Source: Neoarius graeffei (Eukaryota > Chordata > Actinopteri > Siluriformes > Ariidae). From it: a stretch of DNA of 64,000 bases. Made by a program: the position numbers and the translations under genes. Within the stretch, counting starts at the first letter, position 1. Each line of letters starts with the position of its first letter. Of this stretch, positions 12,301-62,701 are shown piece after piece. The notes below the pieces were generated by a model. It ran no database searches, was not told the origin of the DNA, and worked only from the letters and a program-made list of their open reading frames with translations. The stretch is from NCBI RefSeq assembly GCF_027579695.1, contig NC_083590.1, forward strand, positions 19,423,799-19,487,798, read 5' to 3'.

Positions 12301-15300
12301 CGGAGTGGGGGCGGCACGGTGGTGTAGTGGTTAGCGCTGTCGCCTCACAGCAAGAAGGTCCTGGGTTCGAGCCCCGGGGCCGGCGAGGGCCTTTCTGTGC
12401 GGAGTTTGCATGTTCTCCCCGTGTCCGTGTGGGTTTCCTCCGGGTGCTCCGGTTTCCCCCACAGTCCAAAGACATGCAGGTTAGGTTAACTGGTGACTCT
12501 AAATTGACCGTAGGTGTGAGTGTGAATGGTTGTCTGTGTCAGCCCTGTGATGACCTGGCGACTTGTCCAGGGTGTACCCCGCCTTTCGCCCATAGTCAGC
12601 TGGGATAGGCTCCAGCTTGCCTGCGACCCTGTAGAAGGATAAAGCGGCTAGAGATAATGAGATGAGATCCTGCGGAGTGAGAAGGCCTAATGGCCTGTAT
12701 GCTGATTATCGATGAAACAGCTGATTGACAATTGTCCACATGTGATAGTCCGGTGCACACAGGACCAGGATTTAAATTAATATCTCCGCACAGTAAGAGA
12801 AGCATGCAGAAAACCACAGATGTACTCCGTTTTGATGATTCAGATGTTTTGCAAACACACTCTCTGTCCTCACACTGTAAACGCTGGTCTCGCACTCGCC
12901 CATCGTCCAAAACTTTGGAGTAGATGATATATTGACCCCAGTTGACAGCGCAGCCTCCTTGAGAGTAGGCCAGCAGGGCTGAGCATTTGCCTGCAAGGCA
13001 GTTTCCCCACAGTTGTACAGCCGTGATGATAGTTAAGAAGAGCATTAGTTTGAGCAGACATGAAAACTCCTTGGCTCTAAAATGGGAGTAACATCGCCAT
13101 GGCACCCAGCTCCCACATAAAGTTTGATGATCAGGCGGTCTCCCCGTTTGTTTTGAGATAGGTGAAACAGCAGCACCTGCCACTCTGCTGCTACCTGCCG
13201 CCATGTTTCCTGCTAGCTCTCACACACATGAGGGAGGGGCTGCTCCTGAAAGCCGCAAGCTTTCACAAGCAAATACATGACTGATATCACGCCGACTTTA
13301 TGATTATCATGTAGAATCTATAGCTCTACGTACCTTTATCTTATGTCATTTCACAACACATGTTCTGACAGGAGGACTGTCTTTGGATCCGGCATAGCTA
13401 CTAGTAGACCCCCTCCGGAATACTGGCAGTGTTGCCGGATTGGGAGGTTTCCCGCCCAGTTGGGCGGTTTCAAGTGCATTTTGGTGGGTTTTGAACATAT
13501 TTTGGGCTGGAAAACGTCAGCAGTATCTGGCAACAGATACTGCTGACGTTTTCCAGCCCAAAATATGTTCAAAACCCACCAAAATGCACTTGAAACCGCC
13601 CAACTGGGCGGGAAACCTCCCAATCTGGCAACACTGTGTAGGCACTGCTGATGGTAGTAACACACGTTTGTGCTGAACTGAACACCCAAGAGATTCTTTT
13701 AAGCTGGGAAGGGTGTCAAAACAATCCAAATGGAAGTGTTCAGAGCACAGGACGGATGTTGGTGAGGGCTCCCACTTGTCACGAGTGCGCCTGACTTGCT
13801 TCACCCACTTCGCATGCAGCTCGGGATCTCTGGGAAACTTGAATAAACTTACCCCATCCTTGTGGGTTTTGGAGCAAAAGCCGGCAACACAACGCGAAGG
13901 CATAACTAATATAATGTATAATAATGTCTAATAAAAATACTAATAATGATAAACTGAACACCTGCCGCATCAACAACAAACTGGTAAGTTAGGAGGAAGG
14001 TTCTTTCGCTGACGTCATATAGCCCCTCCTCCTCATTCGTCTCCTGGGTGCTGCAGCCCCGTCAAATTTGCCCAAATAGCTGCGTTTTTTATCATAACTT
14101 GTAAAATAGGCGCCTTCGTGAATTAATATATGGATCATCGGGAATTACTTTTTATGTTATAAAACATCGCCAAAGATGTCAAAAACGTGTCATCAGCACT
14201 TTAAGGAGTTGAAAAAAAAAAATATATATATATATATATCTCATCTCATCATCTCTAGCCGCTTTATCCTTCTACAGGGTCGCAGGCAAGCTGGAGCCTA
14301 TCCCAGCTGACTACGGGCGAAAGGCGGGGTACACCCTGGACAAGTCGCCAGGTCATCACAGGGCTGACACATAGACACAGACAACCATTCACACTCACAT
14401 TCACACCTACGGTCAATTTAGAGTCACCAGTTAACCTAACCTGCATGTCTTTGGACTGTGGGGGAAACCGGAGCACCCGGAGGAAACCCACGCGGACACG
14501 GGGAGAACATGCAAACTCCACACAGAAAGGCCCTCGCCGGCCCCGGGGCTCGAACCCAGGACCTTCTTGCTGTGAGGCGACAGCGCTAACCACTACACCA
14601 CCGTGCTGCCCCATATATATATATATATATATATAATCTCGATGTTGCTGTCCTTGTCGTCGTTCTTGTGAACACGGAACTGATAACTTTGTTTACACTC
14701 TTGAATAGCTCTTCATGACGACAACCGGAAGTGTACCAACACGATGGGGTGTGTAGCGCCACCTGTGGCTCGGGTGCACAATGTACCTCACACAATAGCT
14801 CGATTCCCTTGTGTGCATGTAGGATTGGATTTCTCTGGCACCCCTGCTGGGACCCTTAGCTCAATTACCGACAGTAGCTTGATTTGGATGTGCATGTAAA
14901 CGTACTGAGTGAGCCTTCGACACCCATGAGCCTGTCGCCGGTTCACCGGTTGTCCTTTGGATCCTTGGACCACTTTTGGTAGGTACTAACCACTGCATAC
15001 CAGGAACACCGAACAAAATGGCACATCTTGTGAGATGCTCAGACCCAGTCATCTCGCCATCACAATTTGGTCTTTGTCAGAGTCTCTCGGATCCTTACAC
15101 TTGCCCATTTTTCCTGCTTCCATCACATCAACTTCAAGAACTGACTGTTCTCTCTCTTGCTGCCTAATGTATCCCACCCCTTGACAGGTGCCGTTGTCAC
15201 GAGATAATGTTATTCACTTCCTGTCAGTGTTTTTTTATTTTTATAGCTGATCAGTGTATTCTAATAGTGTTGTACTGTATAATCACATGCAGGATGTTCC

Positions 15301-24658: not shown

Positions 24659-25333
24659 GGTGGGGTTTACATTAGACCATATCAGTGGATCATCAGATTA
24701 ACGTTTTTAAAACGATTAGTGTGCACACAGCAACGCCAATACGCTCGGCTCCGCAGGCATCCTGCGCTCCAAATCACTCCGCCCTGAACAGCGAGTGCCC
24801 TCTGGAGGGTGCGCACTCCGGCCCTGTGCAGCTCACAGAGCGCGCGAGTGAAGTGCACAAGCAGTGATTCGGGACTGAGCCGCTGTGTGTGTGATCTCAG
24901 TGCATGTCGGGCATGCGCGTCACTTACCACTTGCAAGTGGAAGGATGGCAAGCCTAAAGACAATCATAACTACACAATGGGCAGTATTTGCATCAGTATT
25001 TGCAGTATTTTCATACTTTTATACTCTTTAATGAAAGGTGATACAAGGCGGAAGTCCGTGCCGTTTTTCAGCAGTCGCGTCACATGACCAACGCCAGCGA
25101 ATCAGGAAGGTGGATGTCACAGTGACGTTGTCCAATGACGACGCCAGCTAGAGCTCAGCACAGCGTATCCGCGTATTCTCAATGTTTACACAGCACCGGA
25201 CCAGACACGATCTGGATTGAATACGTGGACCCTGGCGGATTCCCGTTTCCCGGCGTTTCCAGGCATTTTAATGTAAATGGACAGTGCATCCACGAAGAAA
25301 ACGAGACAGATACGGTCTAATGTAAACTTGGCC
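24659..25333. mobile_element. Harbinger-like MITE family A, copy 1
   Basis: Ends GGTGGGGTTTACATTAGACC and GTCTAATGTAAACTTGGCC are inverted. Three bases flank each side (TAA 24656-24658, TCA 25334-25336). About 675 bp; three more copies at 26389, 55912 and 61726 allow alignment. The short apparent peptide MASLKTIITTQW is present in all and is not a credible gene. Confidence 0.8.
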
Positions 25334-26388: not shown

Positions 26389-27058
26389 GGTGGGGTTTAC
26401 ATTAGACCGTATCAGCGGATCATCAGATTAACGTTTTTAAAACGATTAGTGTGCACACAGCAACGCCAATACACGGATACGCTTGGCTCCGCAGGCATCC
26501 CACGCTCCAAATCACTCCGCCCTGAACAGCGAGTGTCCTCTGGAGGGTGCGCACTCCGGCCCTGCGCAGCTCACAGAGCGTGCGAGTGAAGTGCACAAGC
26601 AGTGATTCGGGACTGAGCCGCTGTGTGTGTGATCTCAGCGCATATCACTTACCACTTGCAAGTGGAAGGATGGCAAGCCTAAAGACAATCATAACTACAC
26701 AATGGGCAGTATTTGCATCAGCATTTGCAGTATTTTCATACTTTTATACTCTTTAATGAAAGGTGATACAAGGCGGAAGTCCGCGCTGTTTTTCAGCAGT
26801 CGCGTCACATGACCAACGCCAGCGAATCAGGAAGGTGGATGTCACAGTGACGTTGTCCAATGACGACGCCAGCTAGAACTCAGCACAGCGTATCCGCGTA
26901 TTCTCAATGTTTACACAGCACCGGACCAGACACGATCTGGATTGAATACGTGGACCCTGGCGGATTCCCGTTTCCCGGCGTTTCCAGGCGTTTTAATGTA
27001 AACGGACAGTGCATCCGCGAAGAAAACGAGACAGATACGGGCTAATGTAAACTTGGCC
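26389..27058. mobile_element. Harbinger-like MITE family A, copy 2
   Basis: Same ends as copy 1, in the same orientation, with duplication TGA at 26386-26388 and 27059-27061. It is about 670 bp and very similar to copy 1, 1.7 kb away. Confidence 0.87.
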
Positions 27059-45883: not shown

Positions 45884-47372
45884 CTAGTGCATCTCAAAAA
45901 ATTAGAATACCATGAAAAAGTTCCTTTTTTCATAATTTAATTCAAAAACATAAACTTTCATATATTCTATATTCATTACGTGTAAAGTGAAATATTTAAA
46001 GCCTTTTTTGTTTTAATTTTGATGATTATGGCTTATAGTTCATGAAAATCAGAAATCCAGTATCTCAAATTATTAGAATATTCCCTAAGATCAATCAACA
46101 AAGGATTTACAATACAGAAATGTCCAACTTCTGAAAAGTATATTCATTTATACACTCAATACTTGGTTGGGGCTCCTTTACCATGAATTACTGTATCAAT
46201 GCGGTGTGGCATGGAGGTGATCAGCCTGTGGCACTGCTGAGGTGTTATTGAAGCCCAGGTTGCTTTGATAGTGGCCTTCAGCATATCTGTATTTTTGGGT
46301 CGGGTGTTTCTCATCTTCCTCTTGACAATACCCCATAGATTCTCTATGGGGTTCAGGTCAGGCAAGTTGGCTGGCCAATCAAACACAGTAATATCATGGT
46401 CAGCAAACCATTTGGTAGTAGTTTTGGCACTGTGGGTAGGTGCTAAATCCTGCTGGAAAAGGAAATCAGCATCTCCAAAAAGCTCATCAGCAGATGGAAG
46501 CATGAAGTGCTCTAAAATCTCCTGGTAGATGGCTGTGTTGACTTTGGACTTGATAAAATACAGTGGACCAACACAAGCAGATGACATGGCACCCCAAATC
46601 ATCACAGACTGTGGAAACTTCACACTGGGCTTCAAACACCTTGGATTCTGTGCCTCTCCACTCTTCCTCCAGACTCTAGAACCGTGATTTCCAAATTAAA
46701 TGGAAAATGTACTTTCAGCTGAAAAGAGGACTTTGGACCACTGAGCAACAGTCCATTTCTTTCTCTCCTTAGCCCAGATAAGACACTTCTGACATTGTCT
46801 CTGGCTCAGGAGTACCTTGATATTAGGAATGCGAAAGTTGTATCCCCTTTCTTGAAGATGTCTGTTCGTGATGGGTCTTGATACATGGACACCAGCCTCA
46901 GTCCACTTTTTGTGAAGCTCTCCCAAGTTCTTGAATCAACTTTTCTTGACAATCCTCTCAAGACTGCGGCCATCCCTGTTGCTTGTGCACCTTTTCCAGC
47001 CACCCTTTTCAGCAATGACCTTTTGTGGCTTACCCTCCTTGTGGAGGGCATCAGTGATCATCTTCTGGACAACAGTCAAGTCAGCAGTCTTCCCCATGAT
47101 TGTGGTTGTGTGTACTGAACTAGACTGAGAGATACACTGTGTTCATACTGTTTTACTCAAACTCGAAATGAAATATTCTAATATTTTGAGATGGGGTTTT
47201 TTTATGTTTTTGTACTGTATGCCATACTGATTAAAATTAAAATAGAAAAATGCTTTAAACATTTTAGTTTATGTGTAATGAGTCTATAATATATAACATT
47301 TTCACTTTCTGAAATAACTGATGGAAAATATTGAACTTTTTCACAATATTCTAATTTTTTGAGATGCACTAG
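45884..47372 (-). mobile_element. Tc1-like DD34E transposon, inactivated
   Basis: Inverted ends CTAGTGCATCTCAAAAAATT and its reverse complement, each bordered by TA (45882-45883, 47373-47374). The transposase on the minus strand is broken. It interrupts the second LINE. Confidence 0.92.
46156..47100 (-). pseudogene. Tc1-like transposase (DD34E), broken
   Basis: The C-terminal 159 residues (46635-46156) are open and hold the second D (FLFQQDLAPTHSA) and E (LPDLNPIENLW) with exactly 34 residues between. Upstream, frames at 46926-46696 and 47051-46806 carry the N-terminal part, separated by frameshifts. The first catalytic position reads LFSAEST, where SDE is expected, so the Asp is now Ala. 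A stop follows shortly after. Confidence 0.88.
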
Positions 47373-48289: not shown

Positions 48290-49200
48290 TGTTCCTACTC
48301 CGCCTACAAAACTCACTTCCTTCACAGCCCTTGACTCTTTTTCTGTCACTGAACTCATCATTAAGTCTAATCCTTCCTCCTGTCTTCTTGGCCGTACCTC
48401 CACCCTGCTACTTAAGACATGTTGATCTATAATTAATACTCCTATTGCCATAGGGATAAATACATGTCTCTGCCCTCAAAACTGCTCCAGTTACCCCTGT
48501 CCTAAAGAAACCTGAGTTGGATCCAACATCTCTTTCCAGTTACAGACCTATCTCAAATCTTCCCTTTCTAGCTAAAGTGATAGGAAGAGTGGTAGCAATG
48601 CAACTCCTTACCTTTCTTAATGAATACACAGTCTATGAGCCCTTTCAATCTGGTTTCCGTACACATCCCATCACTGAGACAGCTCTTCTGCATGTTGTTC
48701 ATGATCTCTGCTGGTCTGCTGATGGTTCTCTTAACATTCTTCTCCTCCTTGACTTAAGTATTGTTTTTGATACTGTTAACAACGATGTACTCATTTCCCG
48801 TCTTTCCTCTATTGATATCGCTGACATAGCCCTTCAGTGATTCAGGTCATATCTTACAAACAGAGAACAATTTATTAGACGAGGTTCAAACAAGTCCACC
48901 ACCTCTCCTGTTATCTGTGGGGTCCCTCAAGGATCGGTTCTTGGACCACTTCTGTTTTTAATCTACATTCTACCTCTTGGTCATATTATTTGTAGCCATG
49001 GCCTTAACTTTCACTGCAATGCAGATGATATTCAGTTCTATCTCAAGACAGATTCACCCACAGACTCCTTTCCCAGGACCCTAACTGACTGCATCTCAGA
49101 TTTAAAGCTTTGGTTGCAGGAAAACTTTCTCAAGTTAAACAGTGATAAAACTGAAGCCCTACTGGTTAGTCCCAAATCCCTACTATCTGAATCATCCACC
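48290..49200 (+). pseudogene. L2-like reverse transcriptase, inactivated
   Basis: Reads SFVTELIIKSNP-like text, SYRPISNLPFLAKVIGR, YEPFQSGFRTHPITETALLH, LLLLDLSIVFDTVNNDVLIS, a stop at 48838, then [16 protein letters not shown] and [10 protein letters not shown]. The catalytic box is NADD instead of YADD, and DLSIVFD replaces the usual DLSAAFD. Confidence 0.85.
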
Positions 49201-49204
49201 TTTT

Positions 49205-49362
49205 ACATTACAGGCATTTAGCAGATCAGATTATCCAGCGTGTCATACAACGTACCCAGAACAGCCTGGAGTGAGGTCCCTTGTTCAAGGGACCTTCAGC
49301 CATTCCTGCTGGTTCAAGGAATCAAATCAGCAATCTTTTGGGCCCAAAGCTGCTTCTCTAGG
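49205..49362 (-). mobile_element. tRNA-derived SINE (GCATTTAGCAG-tail type) in the LINE
   Basis: The same family as 18565-18708 and 53956-54121, lying just after the RT C-terminus. Minus-strand box B-like GATTTGATTCCTTGAACC. Confidence 0.7.
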
Positions 49363-54121: not shown

Positions 54122-55057
54122 TTAACACAACAGGGATTAATTTGTCTACTTTCTTAAAGGTTTTTTAAAAGTAAAACTCTTTTTACTCTTTTATAGTGCT
54201 GTTGTGCTCTAAAGTTCTGGTAGTGTGAGATTTCTTTCATTAAAATTGAACAATCAGTACATTTACATGCACGCTAATATTCAACTATTATTCTATCCAC
54301 AGTCACTGGACATGAGCAATCGTGCACTCTGATTGGCTCCTCTACTACTAGGCTATCAGCTTTCACTGACATCACCCGAAACCGGACGTAAACAGACCCT
54401 GCGCCATATTGGAAGACCAACAAACTCGTGATTAGGGGGAAATAACGGCAGCGGTATGTGAAGCCACGAGAATAAAGTGGAGTGGCAAACGACTTAAACA
54501 AATCTGAGCTGTTTTATTTATGATTTATTGACCCAACAGTAGACTTGAAAGAAACCTGTGTGAGACTTGGCAAAAAACTGTGGATATAATGGATAAGTCT
54601 GTGCATGATCTGCGGACACTTTGAGGGAAGCAAACCCAAGAAATTCAGATTTAAAACATGCTAAACTGGCCCCAAGTTGATAACTGTATGAGGAGCAAGC
54701 CTCCCAGACTTCTACAGTTTAATAATAATAATAATTTAGGATGGTTTGGGGCTTGCTCTCCCTCCTATTATATAAATAAAGCATAGTTGTTGTGTAGGCA
54801 TATATCATAAATACATATGTATAATTTGGATAAATTAACCTAAATTATGGATACCTTAATAGTAACAAAAAGTATTAATTTTTCAACTGAAAAGATATAT
54901 TATTAAAAGATAAATATCAACAAGATTACCTTGGCCATAACTATGTGTAGGTTATAGAGTGCTTCGAGGTCAGCGCGCACCCGGCGGCGGCCATATTGGA
55001 CGTCAAAGGTCGCTGTGTCAGTGCATTGTTGTCCAGCGAAGCAAAAAGGGGTGACAA

Positions 55058-55250
55058 TGCCGAATACGTGCGTCATTGTTGGCTGTAGTAGCCGGGGGGA
55101 AAGGGTGGCAAAAGCTTCCACAGACTCCCTAAAGACGTGACTAACCAGGGAATTGCAGCACAGGAGAAAAGCGAGCGGAGGAGACGACAGTGGCTGGCTG
55201 CCATCAACCGATCCGGATTTGTTCTGATCACTTTGTGACAGGTAGGTTAA
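55058..55250 (+). pseudogene. THAP-domain exon with frameshift
   Basis: From ATG at 55058: MPNTCVIVGCSSRG, then after a 1-base shift RLPKDVTNQGIAAQEKSE and RRRRQWLAAINRSGF, ending before ACAG|GTAGGT, a good donor. C5 and C10, the conserved P and the W of RQWLAAI fit the first half of a THAP domain. The frameshift near 55100 kills it. It faces the SWIM exon at 55304-55831 tail to tail. Confidence 0.7.
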
Positions 55251-55303
55251 TATTGTCTTGAATTTCATAGTTACTAAAATAGTTATTTTAATTTCATAGT
55301 TAC

Positions 55304-55831
55304 CGGTAGCATCCAGTATGCCGGCTGTTGTGTGACCGTCGTTCTTTCCCTCAGTCTCGTGGCCGCTTCAACATAAAACAACAGGGAAGCAACATGGGAG
55401 CAACATTCCCCAAGTCCAGCAATGCAGTTGCAATGTGCACACAAAATAGCAAGTCTCTTGTCAACTTTTATCCAGGGGTGTAGACTAGGCTGGGATAGTC
55501 TCTGCGAGTGTAACACTTTCCCTCTGATCACTTTTGTCTCTCCGTCTTCAGCAGTAAACACCGACACATCGCGGACCCAACCGGACACAAATCTATCGTA
55601 TGCTTCCATGCTCTTGTAGTTCTGGAAATCGTTTAGTTCACAAAATAGACTTGGGTGAAACACTAGATAGTTCACAAGATCTATGTATGTCACATGCGGC
55701 AACAAGCTGGGGTCAGCTTTCCATTCCTTCTCACTAACAGTGTATGGATCTACATTCCCAATGAAACGTACCTTCTCAGCATAACGCTCCCGTGCCTGCT
55801 TATCCAAACTTTCACAGTAGTGCTCCATCAC
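55304..55831 (-). pseudogene. SWIM zinc-finger protein, 5' exon (copy A)
   Basis: An uninterrupted 176-residue stretch starting MMEHYCESLD and ending CTACCG|GTAACT, a donor-like junction at 55303. It contains DPYTVSEKEWKADPSLLP, YIDLVNYLVFHPS and a SWIM finger: C134-x-C136 then C144-x-H146 (HCNCIAGLGECCSH). Fish genomes hold many such proteins in which the SWIM region precedes a YqaJ-like nuclease domain, often in THAP-bearing transposons. Downstream exons are absent here, so it is a remnant unless spliced to something outside. Confidence 0.7.
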
Positions 55832-55911
55832 TTCAGATGTCTAAATTCTTTAAAAAATCCAAGCTTTTAAGCCCTCTAACGCGGAAACGAATCGGTGAAT
55901 GTGTACTCTAT

Positions 55912-56602
55912 GGCCAAGTTTACATTAGACCATATCTGTCTCGTTTTCTTCGCGGATGCACTGTCTGTTTACATTAAACCGCCGGGAAACGGGAATCCGC
56001 CAGCGTCCACGTATTCAATCCAGACCGTGTCAGCTCCGGTGCTGTGTAAACATTGAGAATACACGGATACGCTGTGCTGAGCTCTAGCTGGCGTCGTCAT
56101 TGGACAACGTCACTGTGACATCCACCTTCCCGATTCGCTGGCGTTGGTCATGTGACGCGACTGCTGAAAAACGGCGCGGACTTCCGCCTTGTATCACCTT
56201 TCATTAAAGAGTATAAAAGTATGAAAATACTGCAAATACTGATGCAAATACTGCCCATTGTGTAGTTATGATTGTCTTTAGGCTTGCCATCCTTCCACTT
56301 GCAAGTGGTAAGTGATATGCGCTGGGATCACACACACAGCGGCTCAGTCCCGAATCACAAGCTGTGCACTTCACTCGCGCGCTGTGTGAGCTGCGCAGGG
56401 CCGGAGTGCGCACCCTCCAGAGGGCACTCGCTGTTCAGGGAGGAGTGATTTGGAGCGCAGGATGCCTGCGGAGCCGAGCGTATCCGTGTATTAGTGTTGC
56501 TATGTGCACGCAAATCGTGTATTGGTGTTGCTGTGTGCACACTAATCATTTTAAAAACGTTAATCTGATGATCTGCTGATACGGTCTAATGTAAACATGG
56601 GC
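55912..56602. mobile_element. Harbinger-like MITE family A, copy 3
   Basis: GGCCAAGTTTACATTAGACC and GGTCTAATGTAAACATGGGC ends; duplication TAT at 55909-55911 and 56603-56605. It is inverted relative to copies 1 and 2 and carries an internal duplication around ATTAGTGTTGCTATGTGCAC. It separates SWIM copies A and B. Confidence 0.85.
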
Positions 56603-56615
56603 TATGATGTGTACT

Positions 56616-56880
56616 CTATGAGCGCTCTGGAGCAAGTGACTTCCAAGATGGCCGCGCACGCGCAGTGTTACTATTTTTAGCATCATCTCGGAGCCCTCTA
56701 TTCTTAATAACAGCTGTAATATCACGAACCAAGCCATTAACAACATAATTGTAAGCCTGTAGCCCTTTGTAGGCTTTCAAGTCATCAGCAGTGTAGGCAC
56801 TGGGTGTAAACAACAAATAGTTTACAATGTCTGAGTAGCAAACAGATGGCAGAATTGGTGTCCGGTCCTCCTTATGTATC
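56616..56880 (-). pseudogene. SWIM-family exon (copy B)
   Basis: Minus strand, preceded by an acceptor-like CCGTGTCAG. It reads HKEDRTPILPSVCYSDIVNY, LKAYKGLQAYNYVVNGLVRD, paralleling YIDLVNYLVF ... YKSMEAYDRFVSGWVRD of copy A at perhaps 40-50% similarity by eye. It stops before the SWIM finger. Confidence 0.65.
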
Positions 56881-57372
56881 TGACACGGAGAAATAATATA
56901 AATCGTGCTGCCTACCAGATTACAGTCGTCTGTTTTATTGTATCAGTACTAGTATCACTTACTATACTCATCAGTCATAGATTAGTCCAGTACAACATGA
57001 CCAGCTTGCTTTTTTTCCATTTGACTGTCGCAAGTTTTTTCAGGCTGGTACAGTCAAAAATTGAAAAATGTTTTGGCCTACTAAACTAGTCATCGATTCT
57101 ACTAGTGTATTAATTGGAGTCGACATGAAAACGTTAGGTAAAAACTTTAAACCAGTACAATCTCTTCTTCAAAGTTTCACCAAATGGTTTTATTTATGCA
57201 ATTTAAAGCTCATAATACTGTATAACTTTGGTCGAGTAAAAACACGGAGAAAAACATGGCTGAATCCTGAATGACTCCTATAGAGATCTTGCAGTCACAT
57301 GACCGGAAAGTACACAACCGCCATCTTGTCGGTAAAAAAACACAGCTGAATACTGCTGCACTCGTGTACAGA

Positions 57373-57681
57373 ATGGATCAATTTCAACCGACAGACTACA
57401 CGGCTCATTTTTCTAATGAACAGATAACTCGATATATGTCTAAAATAAACGATCTACAGATTAGTGACCCTTATGGTTTACCGGACGGAGTTTTCACGAC
57501 CGGATTTTGAACTGCCAGTGGAATACCCAGACATGTATAATTACCTCATCAACTTTCCCTCGCTGTTCAGTGGTGAAGCACTGCATGCTTATAAATCTCT
57601 GGACAGTTATCTTTACAGAAATTCAGGATTTGTCAGCGACTCAGATGTGGCATCTTGTAAACAAGAATCCTCATTGGACAG
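57373..57681 (+). pseudogene. SWIM-family 5' exon (copy C), two frameshifts
   Basis: ATG at 57373; begins MDQFQPTDYTAHFSNEQITR, DPYGLPDGVF, then shifts frame to EYPDMYNYLINFPSLFSGE and HAYKSLDSYLYRNSGFVS, shifts again to WHLVNKNPHW and ends at a donor GGACAG|GTAAGT. The order DPY, YNYLI, AYKSLDSY matches copies A and B. It lies on the opposite strand from them. Confidence 0.68.
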
Positions 57682-58518
57682 GTAAGTCACTTAAGTTTTT
57701 TTTTTTTTTGTAAGTCACTTAAGTATTGAGTATAGCACTGACCAGCCGATTATAGAATAAGGTAATTCCAGCTGTAATTCCAAATCGTCCGTCTTGTTTA
57801 CATGGATCTGGCGTTGGAGAGGTAGAGGCTTAGCAGTGGAGGTTTGAGTGGCTGTTTTCTGAGCTTAATCAACAGGCCGGCTCTGCAGCCTCGCTTTTGC
57901 TTCCTCTCCCAACGCTGTCTCCCTCGCTTTGCCTCCGATAACAATCCACGGAGACCCCGCTGGTCTCGCTATCTCGTCCGGAATGTTTTTTTTTTTCTCT
58001 CGTCCGGAATGTTGTGCATGCGATGGAAATCGCTACAAACCGTCATTTTCTGCTGGAAACCAATGTCCAGTAAGTCCATACGGTTGTAGTGGATATTGAA
58101 GTCCGGTACAGACGAACAACATGCAAAAATACACACAAAAAACATAAAAAATGTGCACAGGTAGGGAGAGCTTGTAGCCACAGCCGTTGTAGTAGAATTG
58201 TATATAGGGTTTTCCAGAAGAAAAGGTAGAAGTAAAAGCAGAAGTAGAAGGCGGAATATGGCGTTTGACCGACAAGATGGCGTCTGTCACAATCTGGATC
58301 GGCTGTGACGTCACATGCAAGTGCTCCATTTGTTTAAATAGGGGGCTACATAGGCGGCAGAATGAAGTTTCTTTTTCCCTGCCATGGAAGCGCACTTGAG
58401 GAGGAAAGCAATTTGCATTACAGCCGTGAGGCGGCTCGGCTCGGTTTACCCTTTCGGGCGCTCTCGTTTTCTGTTAGAATTTGGTAAAGAAAAAAATAAA
58501 TATTATTTACCAGCTTAC

Positions 58519-58718
58519 CGGGTCCATTAACATAAATCTGACAGCTGACAAGGTCGGGATATAAACGAACTTTTGCGTTAAACTGTGTGCTTGGATTCAC
58601 ATAATTTTTTCTGAGTCTTATCATATGGGTCAAACCCATCAATCACAGCCAGTTTCTCCACATACCGTGCCCTTTCTGCAGCTGGTAATGTACTCACATA
58701 ACCAGAATTATCATCCAT
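58519..58718 (-). pseudogene. SWIM-family first exon (copy D), frameshifted
   Basis: ATG at 58718: MDDNSGYVSTLPAAERARYV, EKLAVIDGFDPYD, then after a shift NYVNPSTQFNAKVRLYPD and a donor GACCCG|GTAAGC at 58518. RARYVEKLAVIDGFDPY parallels ERYAEKVRFIGNVDPY of copy A. It ends directly in the TTATTTACCAGCTTA block shared with 60462. Confidence 0.6.
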
Positions 58719-59815
58719 CGTGTCACTTTACTCTCGCTCGTACTTTGTTTTATATTGTGAGTGCATGTACTTGGTCTTCCAATATGGCGCCTAACAAAAT
58801 CTCGCGGCGCGGTGACGTCATGTGAAAGGGGTCTATACCGTGAGTAGAGAAAAACAAATGGTGGAGTGTGTTGCTGAACCAACCGAGGACGAAATAAAAA
58901 CTACCCGAAAATGAAAACCACAAAAAATACAAAAAAAGGGCAGTAAAATATGGAATGAAAGTGTTTGATGGTAAGAATGTATCTTTTTTTATTTTTCAGG
59001 AATAATTATTGCATTTTTTCACAAATTGCTCCTGTCATTTCACCGGTTTGTTTACATTCTAAGGGGAAATGATTTCGTCGGATGTTTTGTATAACGATTT
59101 TATTTATCGAATTTGCAAAAAATAAAAACGTTCTGTTTCTCACAATCCAGTGAATGTGGATAGAATAAAACAGTTATTCCACTCAATCTCGTCGTACATG
59201 GATTATAGACAACTCGGTGCTACATGTCTCGTTGGCTATCAGCTCATGTATGACTCGATTTCGTGGAATAACTGTTAAATATTCCGAATATGACAATATT
59301 TGGAATTTGATACAACTCATGTGAACAGCATATTCCGTTTGGATATTCAGAAATGGGTTTCTTATGAATTTAGAATTTTCTGATTAAGTCATGTGGGAGG
59401 AAATATTATTACAGTATTAATATCATCGATATTATTCGGGTTTGAGGAGAATTCTTTGGACATGTTTACAGTGCATTCTGAATATGCATCAGAATTGGGG
59501 GTTTTATGGCAGTTTGATTGCGACACACAGCCTTTTACCTGTTTACGGTCAGCTCTGTGCGTTGTGCACAAACTAATAACCAATCCAAGTATGCGCAGCT
59601 GCATGTATGACTGAAATATTCCTTTGCATTAGCTTGTCTTTTTCGGAATAAGGAATATTATTTTTTTCATGGTTTGGTTTCCATCAAATCGTGTGCTCTG
59701 ATTGGCTGGCGAGCGGGTCTCCCAGTTATGGACCTCTGGTGACTCCCTCGTTCACAACAACAACAAACATAGTAGCAATTTTTGTCAACGTTTATTTTCG
59801 CATTTCTCAGGAGAA

Positions 59816-60387
59816 TAGCATTAATTTTACAGCATGGATAGCGATAACGACAGTGTTCACAGCGAAAGCGAGTTTTACTACCCTGAGGAAGAAGAAATAA
59901 AAGAAAACATTTCAGGAGAAAGCTAAAAACCTCTAACTTGCTAACGCCACGCAAAAACATGGCTGAATCCTGAATGACTCAATTTTGTATAAATAGGGGA
60001 CTACATAGGCGGCAAAATGTAGTTTTTTTCCTGCCATGGAAGTGCACTTGTATACCGAGGAGGAAGCCATTTGCATTACAGCCGTGAATGAGGATTCAAA
60101 ATAGCATTAATTTTACAGCATGGATAGTGATAATGAGTCTTCACAGCAAAAGCGAGTTTTACTACCCTGAGGAAGACAAAATAAAAGAAAACATTTCAGG
60201 AGAAAGCCAAAAACCTGTAACTTGCTAACGCCGCGCAAAAACATGGCTGAATCCTGAATTACTTAATTTTGTATAAATAGGGGACTACATAAGTGGCAAA
60301 ATGTAGTTTTTTTCCTGCCATGGAAGTGCACTTGTATACCGAGGACGAAGCCATTTGCATTACAGCCGTGAATGAGGATTCAAAATG
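59816..60387 (+). repeat. 286-bp direct duplication
   Basis: TAGCATTAATTTTACAGCAT begins at 59816 and again at 60102, and the following text (ACCCTGAGGAAGA, ACATGGCTGAATCCTGAAT, GGGGACTACATAGG) repeats with a few changes. Each unit encodes a short acidic peptide (MDSDNDSVHSESEFYYPEEE) ended by a stop. Confidence 0.85.
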
Positions 60388-61515: not shown

Positions 61516-62701
61516 CACTACCGTTCAAAAGTTTGGGGTCACCCAGACAATTTTGTGTTTTCCATGAAAAGTCACACTTTTATTTACCACCATAAGTTGT
61601 AAAATGAATAGAAAATATAGTCAAGACATTTTTCTGGCCATTTTGAGCATTTAATCGACCCCACAAATGTGATGCTCCAGAAACTCAATCTGCTCAAAGG
61701 AAGGTCAGTTTTATAGCTTCTCTAAGGCCAAGTTTACATTAGACCGTATCTGTCTCGTTTTCTTCGCGGATGCACTGTCCGTTTACATTAAAACGCCTGG
61801 AAACGCCGGGAAACGGGAATCCGCCAGGGTCCACGTATTCAATCCAGATCGTGTCTGGTCCGGTGCTGTGTAAACATTGAGAATACGCGGATACGCTGTG
61901 CTGAGCTCTAGCTGGCGTCGTCATTGGACAACGTCACTGTGACATCCACCTTCCTGATTCGCTGGCGTTGGTCATGTGACGCGACTGCTGAAAAACGGCG
62001 CGGACTTCCGCCTTGTATCACCTTTCATTAAAGAGTATAAAAGTATGAAAATACTGCAAATACTGATGCAAATACTGCCCATTGTGTAGTTATGATTGTC
62101 TTTAGGCTTGCCATCCTTCCACTTGCAAGTGGTAAGTGACGCACATGCCCGATATGCACTGGGATCACACACACAGCGGCTCAGTCCCGAATCTCTGAGC
62201 TGCGCAGGGCCGGAGTGCACACCCTCCAGAGGGCACTCGCTGTTCAGGGCGGAGTGATTTGGAGCGCAGGATGCCTGCGGAGCCGAGCGTATCCGTGTAT
62301 TGGCGTTGCTGTGTGCACGCGAATCGTTTTAAAAACGTTAATCTGATAATCCGCTGATACGGTCTAATGTAAACACCACCTAAAGAGCTCAACTGTTTTC
62401 AGCTGTGCTAACATGATTGTACAAGGGTTTTCTAATCATCCATTAGCCTTCTGAGGCAATGAGCAAACACATTGTACCATTAGAACACTGGAGTGAGAGT
62501 TGCTGGAAATGGGCCTCTATACACCTATGGAGATATTGCACCAAAAACCAGACATTTGCAGCTAGAATAGTCATTTACCACATTAGCAATGTATAGAGTG
62601 GATTTCTGATTAGTTTAAAGTGATCTTCATTGAAAAGAACAGTGCTTTTCTTTCAAAAATAAGGACATTTCAAAGTGACCCCAAACTTTTGAACGGTAGT
62701 G
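61516..62701. mobile_element. Tc1-like MITE hosting a Harbinger-like MITE
   Basis: CACTACCGTTCAAAAGTTTG and CAAACTTTTGAACGGTAGTG are inverted ends, with TA on both sides (61514-61515, 62702-62703). Interior text (GGACATTTCAAAGTGACCCC, ATTTTGAGCATTTAATCGAC) belongs to a frequent fish element; without the insert it is about 530 bp. Confidence 0.9.
61726..62380. mobile_element. Harbinger-like MITE family A, copy 4
   Basis: GGCCAAGTTTACATTAGACC and GGTCTAATGTAAACACCACC ends; duplication TAA at 61723-61725 and 62381-62383. The empty site CTCTAAAGAG in the host MITE is restored on removal, which fixes the 3-bp duplication length. Confidence 0.9.

Follow-up and report, generated by a model that had tools for sequence, protein, structure and literature searches.

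What brings a THAP-coding exon on the forward strand and a SWIM-type coding frame on the reverse strand tail to tail at one locus of Neoarius graeffei? Both lie in a stretch of 64,000 nucleotides (nt), here called the window (NC_083590.1; C23:19423799-19487798), inside a unit that we named element 1. The original prediction held that the two pieces are the ends of one convergent two-gene transposon whose middle was deleted, and this was borne out by two elements of the same genome, L022 and L027, which hold both genes. Element 1 is very probably an internal-deletion, non-autonomous derivative of an ISL2EU-type transposon in which genes for a THAP-HTH-DDE transposase and a SWIM-YqaJ exonuclease converge, each starting just inside one terminus; the assignment to ISL2EU follows from domains and the AT duplication rather than from a phylogeny of the transposase. 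The features of element 1 are as follows.

54956-56699, no strand: element 1, a non-autonomous ISL2EU-type derivative with the ends AGAGTGCTTCGAG and AGAGGGCTCCGAG (inverted)
54990-54998, forward: GCCATATTG, a GCCAT[AC]TTG-type motif 35 nt from the left terminus
55057-55241, forward: first exon of the transposase gene, coding for THAP, its frame broken in element 1, with ATG at 55057 and the splice donor GTAGGT at 55242
55242-55281, forward: intron stub of the THAP gene, matching L022 and L027 up to ACTAAAATA
55282-55302, no strand: filler at the deletion joint, 21 nt, mostly a repeat of the THAP intron stub
55303-55829, reverse: 5' part of the SWIM-YqaJ gene (N-terminal part and SWIM-like finger), cut mid-exon after ...QPAYWMLP
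56644-56652, reverse: GCCATCTTG, a GCCAT[AC]TTG-type motif 48 nt from the right terminus

Two-gene relatives in the same genome

A full-length element with both genes was sought across 2.34 Gb in 38 contigs, as the original prediction had proposed. L022 (5768 base pairs, bp) and L027 (6883 bp) each carry a THAP and HTH/DDE transposase gene facing a SWIM-YqaJ exonuclease gene within one element, and the termini and AT/AT flanks of element 1 recur in both. Both belong to the family of element 1: the SWIM arm of element 1 was 96.5% identical to L022 and 96.9% to L027 (and 96.8% to L021), while the THAP arm aligned with gaps at 87.6% and 85.2%, respectively.

The predicted YqaJ nuclease partner was present in the longer relatives. 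In L022, Pfam reported DDE_Tnp_4 (E value, E, 1.2e-52), HTH_Tnp_4 and YqaJ (E 1.6e-18), the last downstream of the SWIM part in the same frame and with the YqaJ-type stretch ASPDG...IEIKC; for the SWIM-YqaJ frame, Pfam gave YqaJ and viral alkaline exonuclease. The same three domains were found in L010, L013 and L009. With tblastn, a THAP exon was located upstream of the transposase on the same strand in L022, L010 and L013, and none was found in L009. The YqaJ genes of L009, L010 and L013 continue after YqaJ into a Cys/His-rich C-terminal tail that looks like a PHD finger; PHD was not among the Pfam matches at E 0.1.

A Pfam YqaJ search of the genome gave 71 matches, and we examined 9.9 kb around 20 of them, less about 4.2 kb at L018, with tblastn at E 1e-6. 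A convergent DDE transposase gene was present in 18 of the 20 loci, and in 11 a THAP exon was found on the DDE strand besides DDE; loosening the threshold to E 0.01 added a twelfth THAP match, in L014. The outcome that the original prediction named as speaking against it, long relatives in which the two genes do not share an element, is not what L022, L027 and this survey showed. We also noticed very similar YqaJ loci (L001, L002 and L005-L008) at C17:2.2-4.5 Mb, about 0.3-0.6 Mb apart and near the contig start, which are perhaps a segmental duplication.

Limits and termini of element 1

Element 1 is flanked by AT at 54954-54955 and AT at 56700-56701. Excising 54956-56699 together with one AT restored an open exon, followed by the donor GTAATC, that belongs to another SWIM-type gene. 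The 75-nt ends of element 1 aligned with a score of 31, which is modest by itself and stronger when combined with the flanks. A GCCAT[AC]TTG motif, which we take to resemble a YY1 site, lay 35-49 nt from the terminus at 14 of 14 inspected termini (elements 1-3, L022, L027, L013 and L024), compared with 164 of 20000 random 100-nt stretches. The 14 termini are not independent because several of those elements are related, and the L013 start used for this count was 2 nt too far left.

Coding arms and the deletion joint

The THAP exon had been predicted to end in the splice donor GTAGGT. The donor proved genuine, since a matching acceptor, GTTGCAG|GTAAGCC, stands in both L022 and L027, and THAP-type sequence continues beyond it; in L022, ...HFVTG is thereby joined to KPDPWDETDPDWI. 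However, the GT lies at 55242 (GACAG|GTAGGT) and not at about 55250, and the exon is frame-broken in the window copy. Pfam recognized THAP in 55057-55241 (36.6 bits, E 7.7e-9) only when X was read at the two frame breaks, and the first in-frame piece, taken singly, gave no THAP match.

On the reverse strand, the predicted SWIM exon stood as an open frame from the ATG at 55829 to 55303 with the SWIM-like motif CxC-x7-CxH, but its splice donor did not. The name SWIM is based on this motif, read by eye, because Pfam found neither SWIM nor another domain in the element 1 frame alone. The left arm of element 1 tracks L022 and L027 across the THAP donor and intron to 55281, and the SWIM coding strand resumes at 55303, where the L022 and L027 frames run on unbroken through ...QPAYWMLPASRTSVPYSPLAEIDF... 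towards YqaJ. GTAACT is absent from both relatives at the position matching the SWIM end. Since their SWIM frame continues without it, this apparent donor was created by the filler between the two arms. Within the filler and the adjoining C at 55303, AATTTCATAGTTAC at 55290-55303 is a 14-nt repeat of 55261-55274 in the THAP intron stub; none of 5000 shuffles of the stub reached this length, as against 17 of 2063 window 62-mers.

Other searches added little. Viral contigs searched with the SWIM protein, the SWIM pattern and the query A1 gave no relatives, nor did genome contigs searched with the SWIM pattern. A PDB sequence search returned three weak matches (best E 0.046), which were not used, and a single-sequence structure model was too poor for use (mean predicted local distance difference test score, pLDDT, 35.8).

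An amplified family with one joint

When 925 nt of element 1 served as the query of a DNA search, 824 candidates appeared at first look, of which 40 copies were scored, the window copy included; the 39 further copies that we cut were the best-scoring ones, so that the sample favours young copies. All 40 had the deletion joint (at most 4 errors), and their mean pairwise difference was 2.9%. Across the genome, a 49-nt pattern spanning the joint (at most 2 mismatches) occurred at 86 places, 56 forward and 30 reverse, the window included, whereas its reversed control occurred at none, indicating that the joint is not due to chance. The deletion is a property of an amplified non-autonomous family and not an accident of the window locus. 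Among the 39 cut copies, AT/AT flanked 26 of the 29 that were readable at both ends (left AT in 34 of 35, right AT in 29 of 32). By inspection, and with no background count, the AT flanks that were read mostly have T or A on either side; the target preferred by ISL2EU is A|AT|T.

Of the 37 copies in which the THAP start was located, 25 kept the THAP frame open; the SWIM frame was open in 26 of 40. Purifying selection acting on these truncated frames once inserted was considered and rejected, as synonymous changes were not in excess among private substitutions: 9 of 34 were synonymous in THAP against 10.4 expected, and 17 of 77 in SWIM against 19.8 expected, with a ratio like that of nonsynonymous to synonymous rates (dN/dS-like) of 1.22 for both. 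We therefore take the leftover frames as passengers after insertion. Two observations lean towards selection. The counts of new stops, 1 and 2, were slightly below the expected 2.6 and 3.2, and private substitutions per site were sparser in the coding parts (0.147 and 0.141) than in the arms (0.25 and 0.284), although the arms may simply mutate faster.

Alternative origins and proposed mechanism

Several observations count against our reading of element 1 as a deleted two-gene ISL2EU-type element. Its inverted repeat is short and imperfect, and the score of 31 was equalled by 12 of 3000 random window pairs. AT/AT was missing in 3 of the 29 copies readable at both ends. ISL2EU terminal repeats usually, not always, begin with GG in the accessible part of their description, whereas the termini of element 1, L022 and L027 read AGAG; GGAG stands at one end of element 3, L013 and L024. 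In the YqaJ survey at E 1e-6, no THAP exon was found in 9 of the 20 loci and no DDE in L015 and L023, and the 20 loci are not independent, with L009 and L012 coming from a set of near-alike C17 loci. Moreover, L022 and L027 may not be intact: the L022 transposase frame is split by a stop into two open reading frames (ORFs), and the L027 THAP frame breaks early.

We weighed three other origins against this one. The region is dense in nested repeats, and a THAP element and an unrelated SWIM/YqaJ element might have come to lie tail to tail by chance. This has almost no probability left, as a single pair of termini and a single AT duplication enclose both pieces; it is already refuted by the mapping of both pieces to the ends of single two-gene elements and by the joint at 86 places. 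It is likewise extremely unlikely that the SWIM part is a captured or domesticated host gene beside which a THAP piece landed. Such a gene would suit a frame that is open in 26 of 40 copies, the window copy among them, and the lower rate of private substitutions in the coding parts (0.14-0.15 per site against 0.25-0.28 in the arms). That origin is nevertheless contradicted by the 86 places of the joint and by the position of the gene inside AT-flanked elements, and the private changes show no synonymous excess (dN/dS-like 1.22). A Kolobok-type (KolobokE) element, which shares the pairing of a DDE transposase with an accessory nuclease, is very unlikely too: the target duplication is AT and not TTAA, DDE_Tnp_4 and HTH_Tnp_4 are the domains recognized in the transposase, and a convergent gene of its own encodes the nuclease.

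For the deleted ISL2EU-type element we propose the following origin. Repair of a break or an excision gap in a full copy would have been aborted and closed with short templated filler, giving the deletion; proteins encoded by full copies would then have acted in trans on the termini of the derivative and so spread it. Resection of donor ends, in the manner of lambda exonuclease, is the probable role of the SWIM-YqaJ protein, which may thus favour gap repair. At each end, the nearby GCCAT[AC]TTG motif may be a promoter element or a protein-binding site. We think it unlikely that the derivative is more than a passenger, that is, that the 76-residue THAP and 181-residue SWIM pieces of the source copy, which lack the catalytic domains, regulate full elements in trans. 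If they did, the transposase could be repressed in a KP-like way and the exonuclease could acquire a dominant-negative partner, and such regulation would explain the spread of a derivative that keeps both 5' coding ends.

Within one genome, the THAP transposase is thus found paired with the SWIM-YqaJ exonuclease, the two genes converging in a single mobile element, and the two-gene forms can be compared there with a one-joint deletion family at 86 places. A genome with both forms and readable joints offers a test bed for whether the exonuclease shapes donor-site repair. Annotators should also be warned that an apparent SWIM exon with a splice donor is here a deletion joint.

Nested elements and other repeats in the window

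Two further deletion derivatives, elements 2 and 3, are nested with element 1 inside one 4.5 kb. These and a later insertion into element 1 are listed below.

54357-58834, no strand: element 2, a second ISL2EU-type derivative, its outermost bases set by eye at AT/AT
56702-56880, reverse: part of the element 2 exon, in frame into 54955-54934 once element 1 is removed; 94% to L010
58613-58718, reverse: start of the element 2 SWIM-gene exon (ATG at 58718), separated from 56880 by a later insertion
57282-58327, no strand: element 3, a third derivative, AT-flanked, of the L013/L024 type
57373-57681, forward: SWIM-gene first exon of element 3, frame-broken
55913-56602, no strand: later insertion of another repeat in the right arm of element 1, with terminal inverted repeats (TIR) of about GGCCAAGTTTACATTAGACC; limits approximate

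Element 1 was inserted into the SWIM-gene exon of element 2, which has its own deletion joint at about 54616 and matches L010, L017 and L018 piecewise. The insertion that splits this exon between 56880 and 58613 is a repeat that contains element 3; uninterrupted copies of that host repeat, which serve as paralogous empty sites, lie at about 59950 and about 60236. End-alignment scores were 51 for element 2 (2 of 3000 random pairs) and 47 for element 3 (10 of 3000). A THAP remnant suspected in element 2 near 54590 had no Pfam match and was dropped. Element 3 retains about 80 nt of the other arm, in which no THAP exon was found.

At its insertion into the right arm of element 1, the repeat at 55913-56602 may have produced a duplication of TATG. 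A 14-bp direct repeat, ATGTGTACTCTATG, was considered as its target duplication and rejected, as a near-tandem copy without the insert is present in L027 and in 23 of the 39 copies. Repeats of about 0.68 kb with TIR around GGCCAAGTTTACATTAGACC also occur in the window at 24665-25333, 26395-27058 and 61720-62375, and these three are 86-90% identical to the copy inside element 1.

Other coding stretches were seen in the window. A further THAP-coding stretch, free of interruptions and different in sequence from that of element 1, lies at 13733-13903 on the reverse strand (Pfam THAP, E 2.9e-13). Beside the copies of the host repeat of element 3, at about 59838-59930, we read by eye a possible frame start, MDSDNDSVHSESEFYYPEEEE..., which presumably resembles KolX or P2X7-ballast. 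KolX has been linked to Kolobok0 in the accessible part of its description (PMC9587614). By eye, the ORF list also gave a Tc1/mariner-like transposase fragment at 46156-46935 (reverse) and a reverse-transcriptase fragment of a long interspersed nuclear element at 48460-49221 (forward).

Comparison with known systems

The accessible parts of two papers describe ISL2EU, a PHIS or Harbinger-like group, as encoding a THAP/HTH/DDE transposase and a YqaJ-domain protein and as making AT duplications, with a mean length of about 4.8 kb (PMC4482050; PMC9179366); one adds that no function is known for the additional ORFs and that non-autonomous elements may have been overlooked (PMC4482050). The relatives of element 1 agree in their DDE transposase with HTH and THAP, of which element 1 retains the THAP exon only, and in a second ORF with YqaJ, which element 1 has lost. 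AT duplication is likewise shared by the window copy, 26 of 29 readable copies, L022, L027, L024 and L013. The hosts are animals in both cases, and the longer relatives measure 5.8-6.9 kb here. Without its DDE and YqaJ parts, element 1 is non-autonomous, and the partner protein carries, besides YqaJ, an N-terminal part and a SWIM-like finger, which differs from ISL2EU as the accessible text describes it. The words SWIM, orientation and opposite do not occur in the main texts of PMC4482050 and PMC9179366, and a full-text literature search, judged by title and not covering Repbase, gave no report of the element 1 derivative or of the SWIM finger.

KolobokE, in the part of its description that was accessible, is a DDE transposon with an accessory lambda-exonuclease-like nuclease and TTAA duplications (PMC9587614). 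The elements described here similarly combine a DDE transposon with an accessory nuclease of that kind, but AT and not TTAA is what flanks the window copy and 26 of the 29 readable copies. KP of the P element and Ds of Ac are internal-deletion derivatives that kept their ends, lost their middle and were amplified in trans. Unlike KP and Ds, element 1 carries at its two ends the 5' coding pieces of two different genes.
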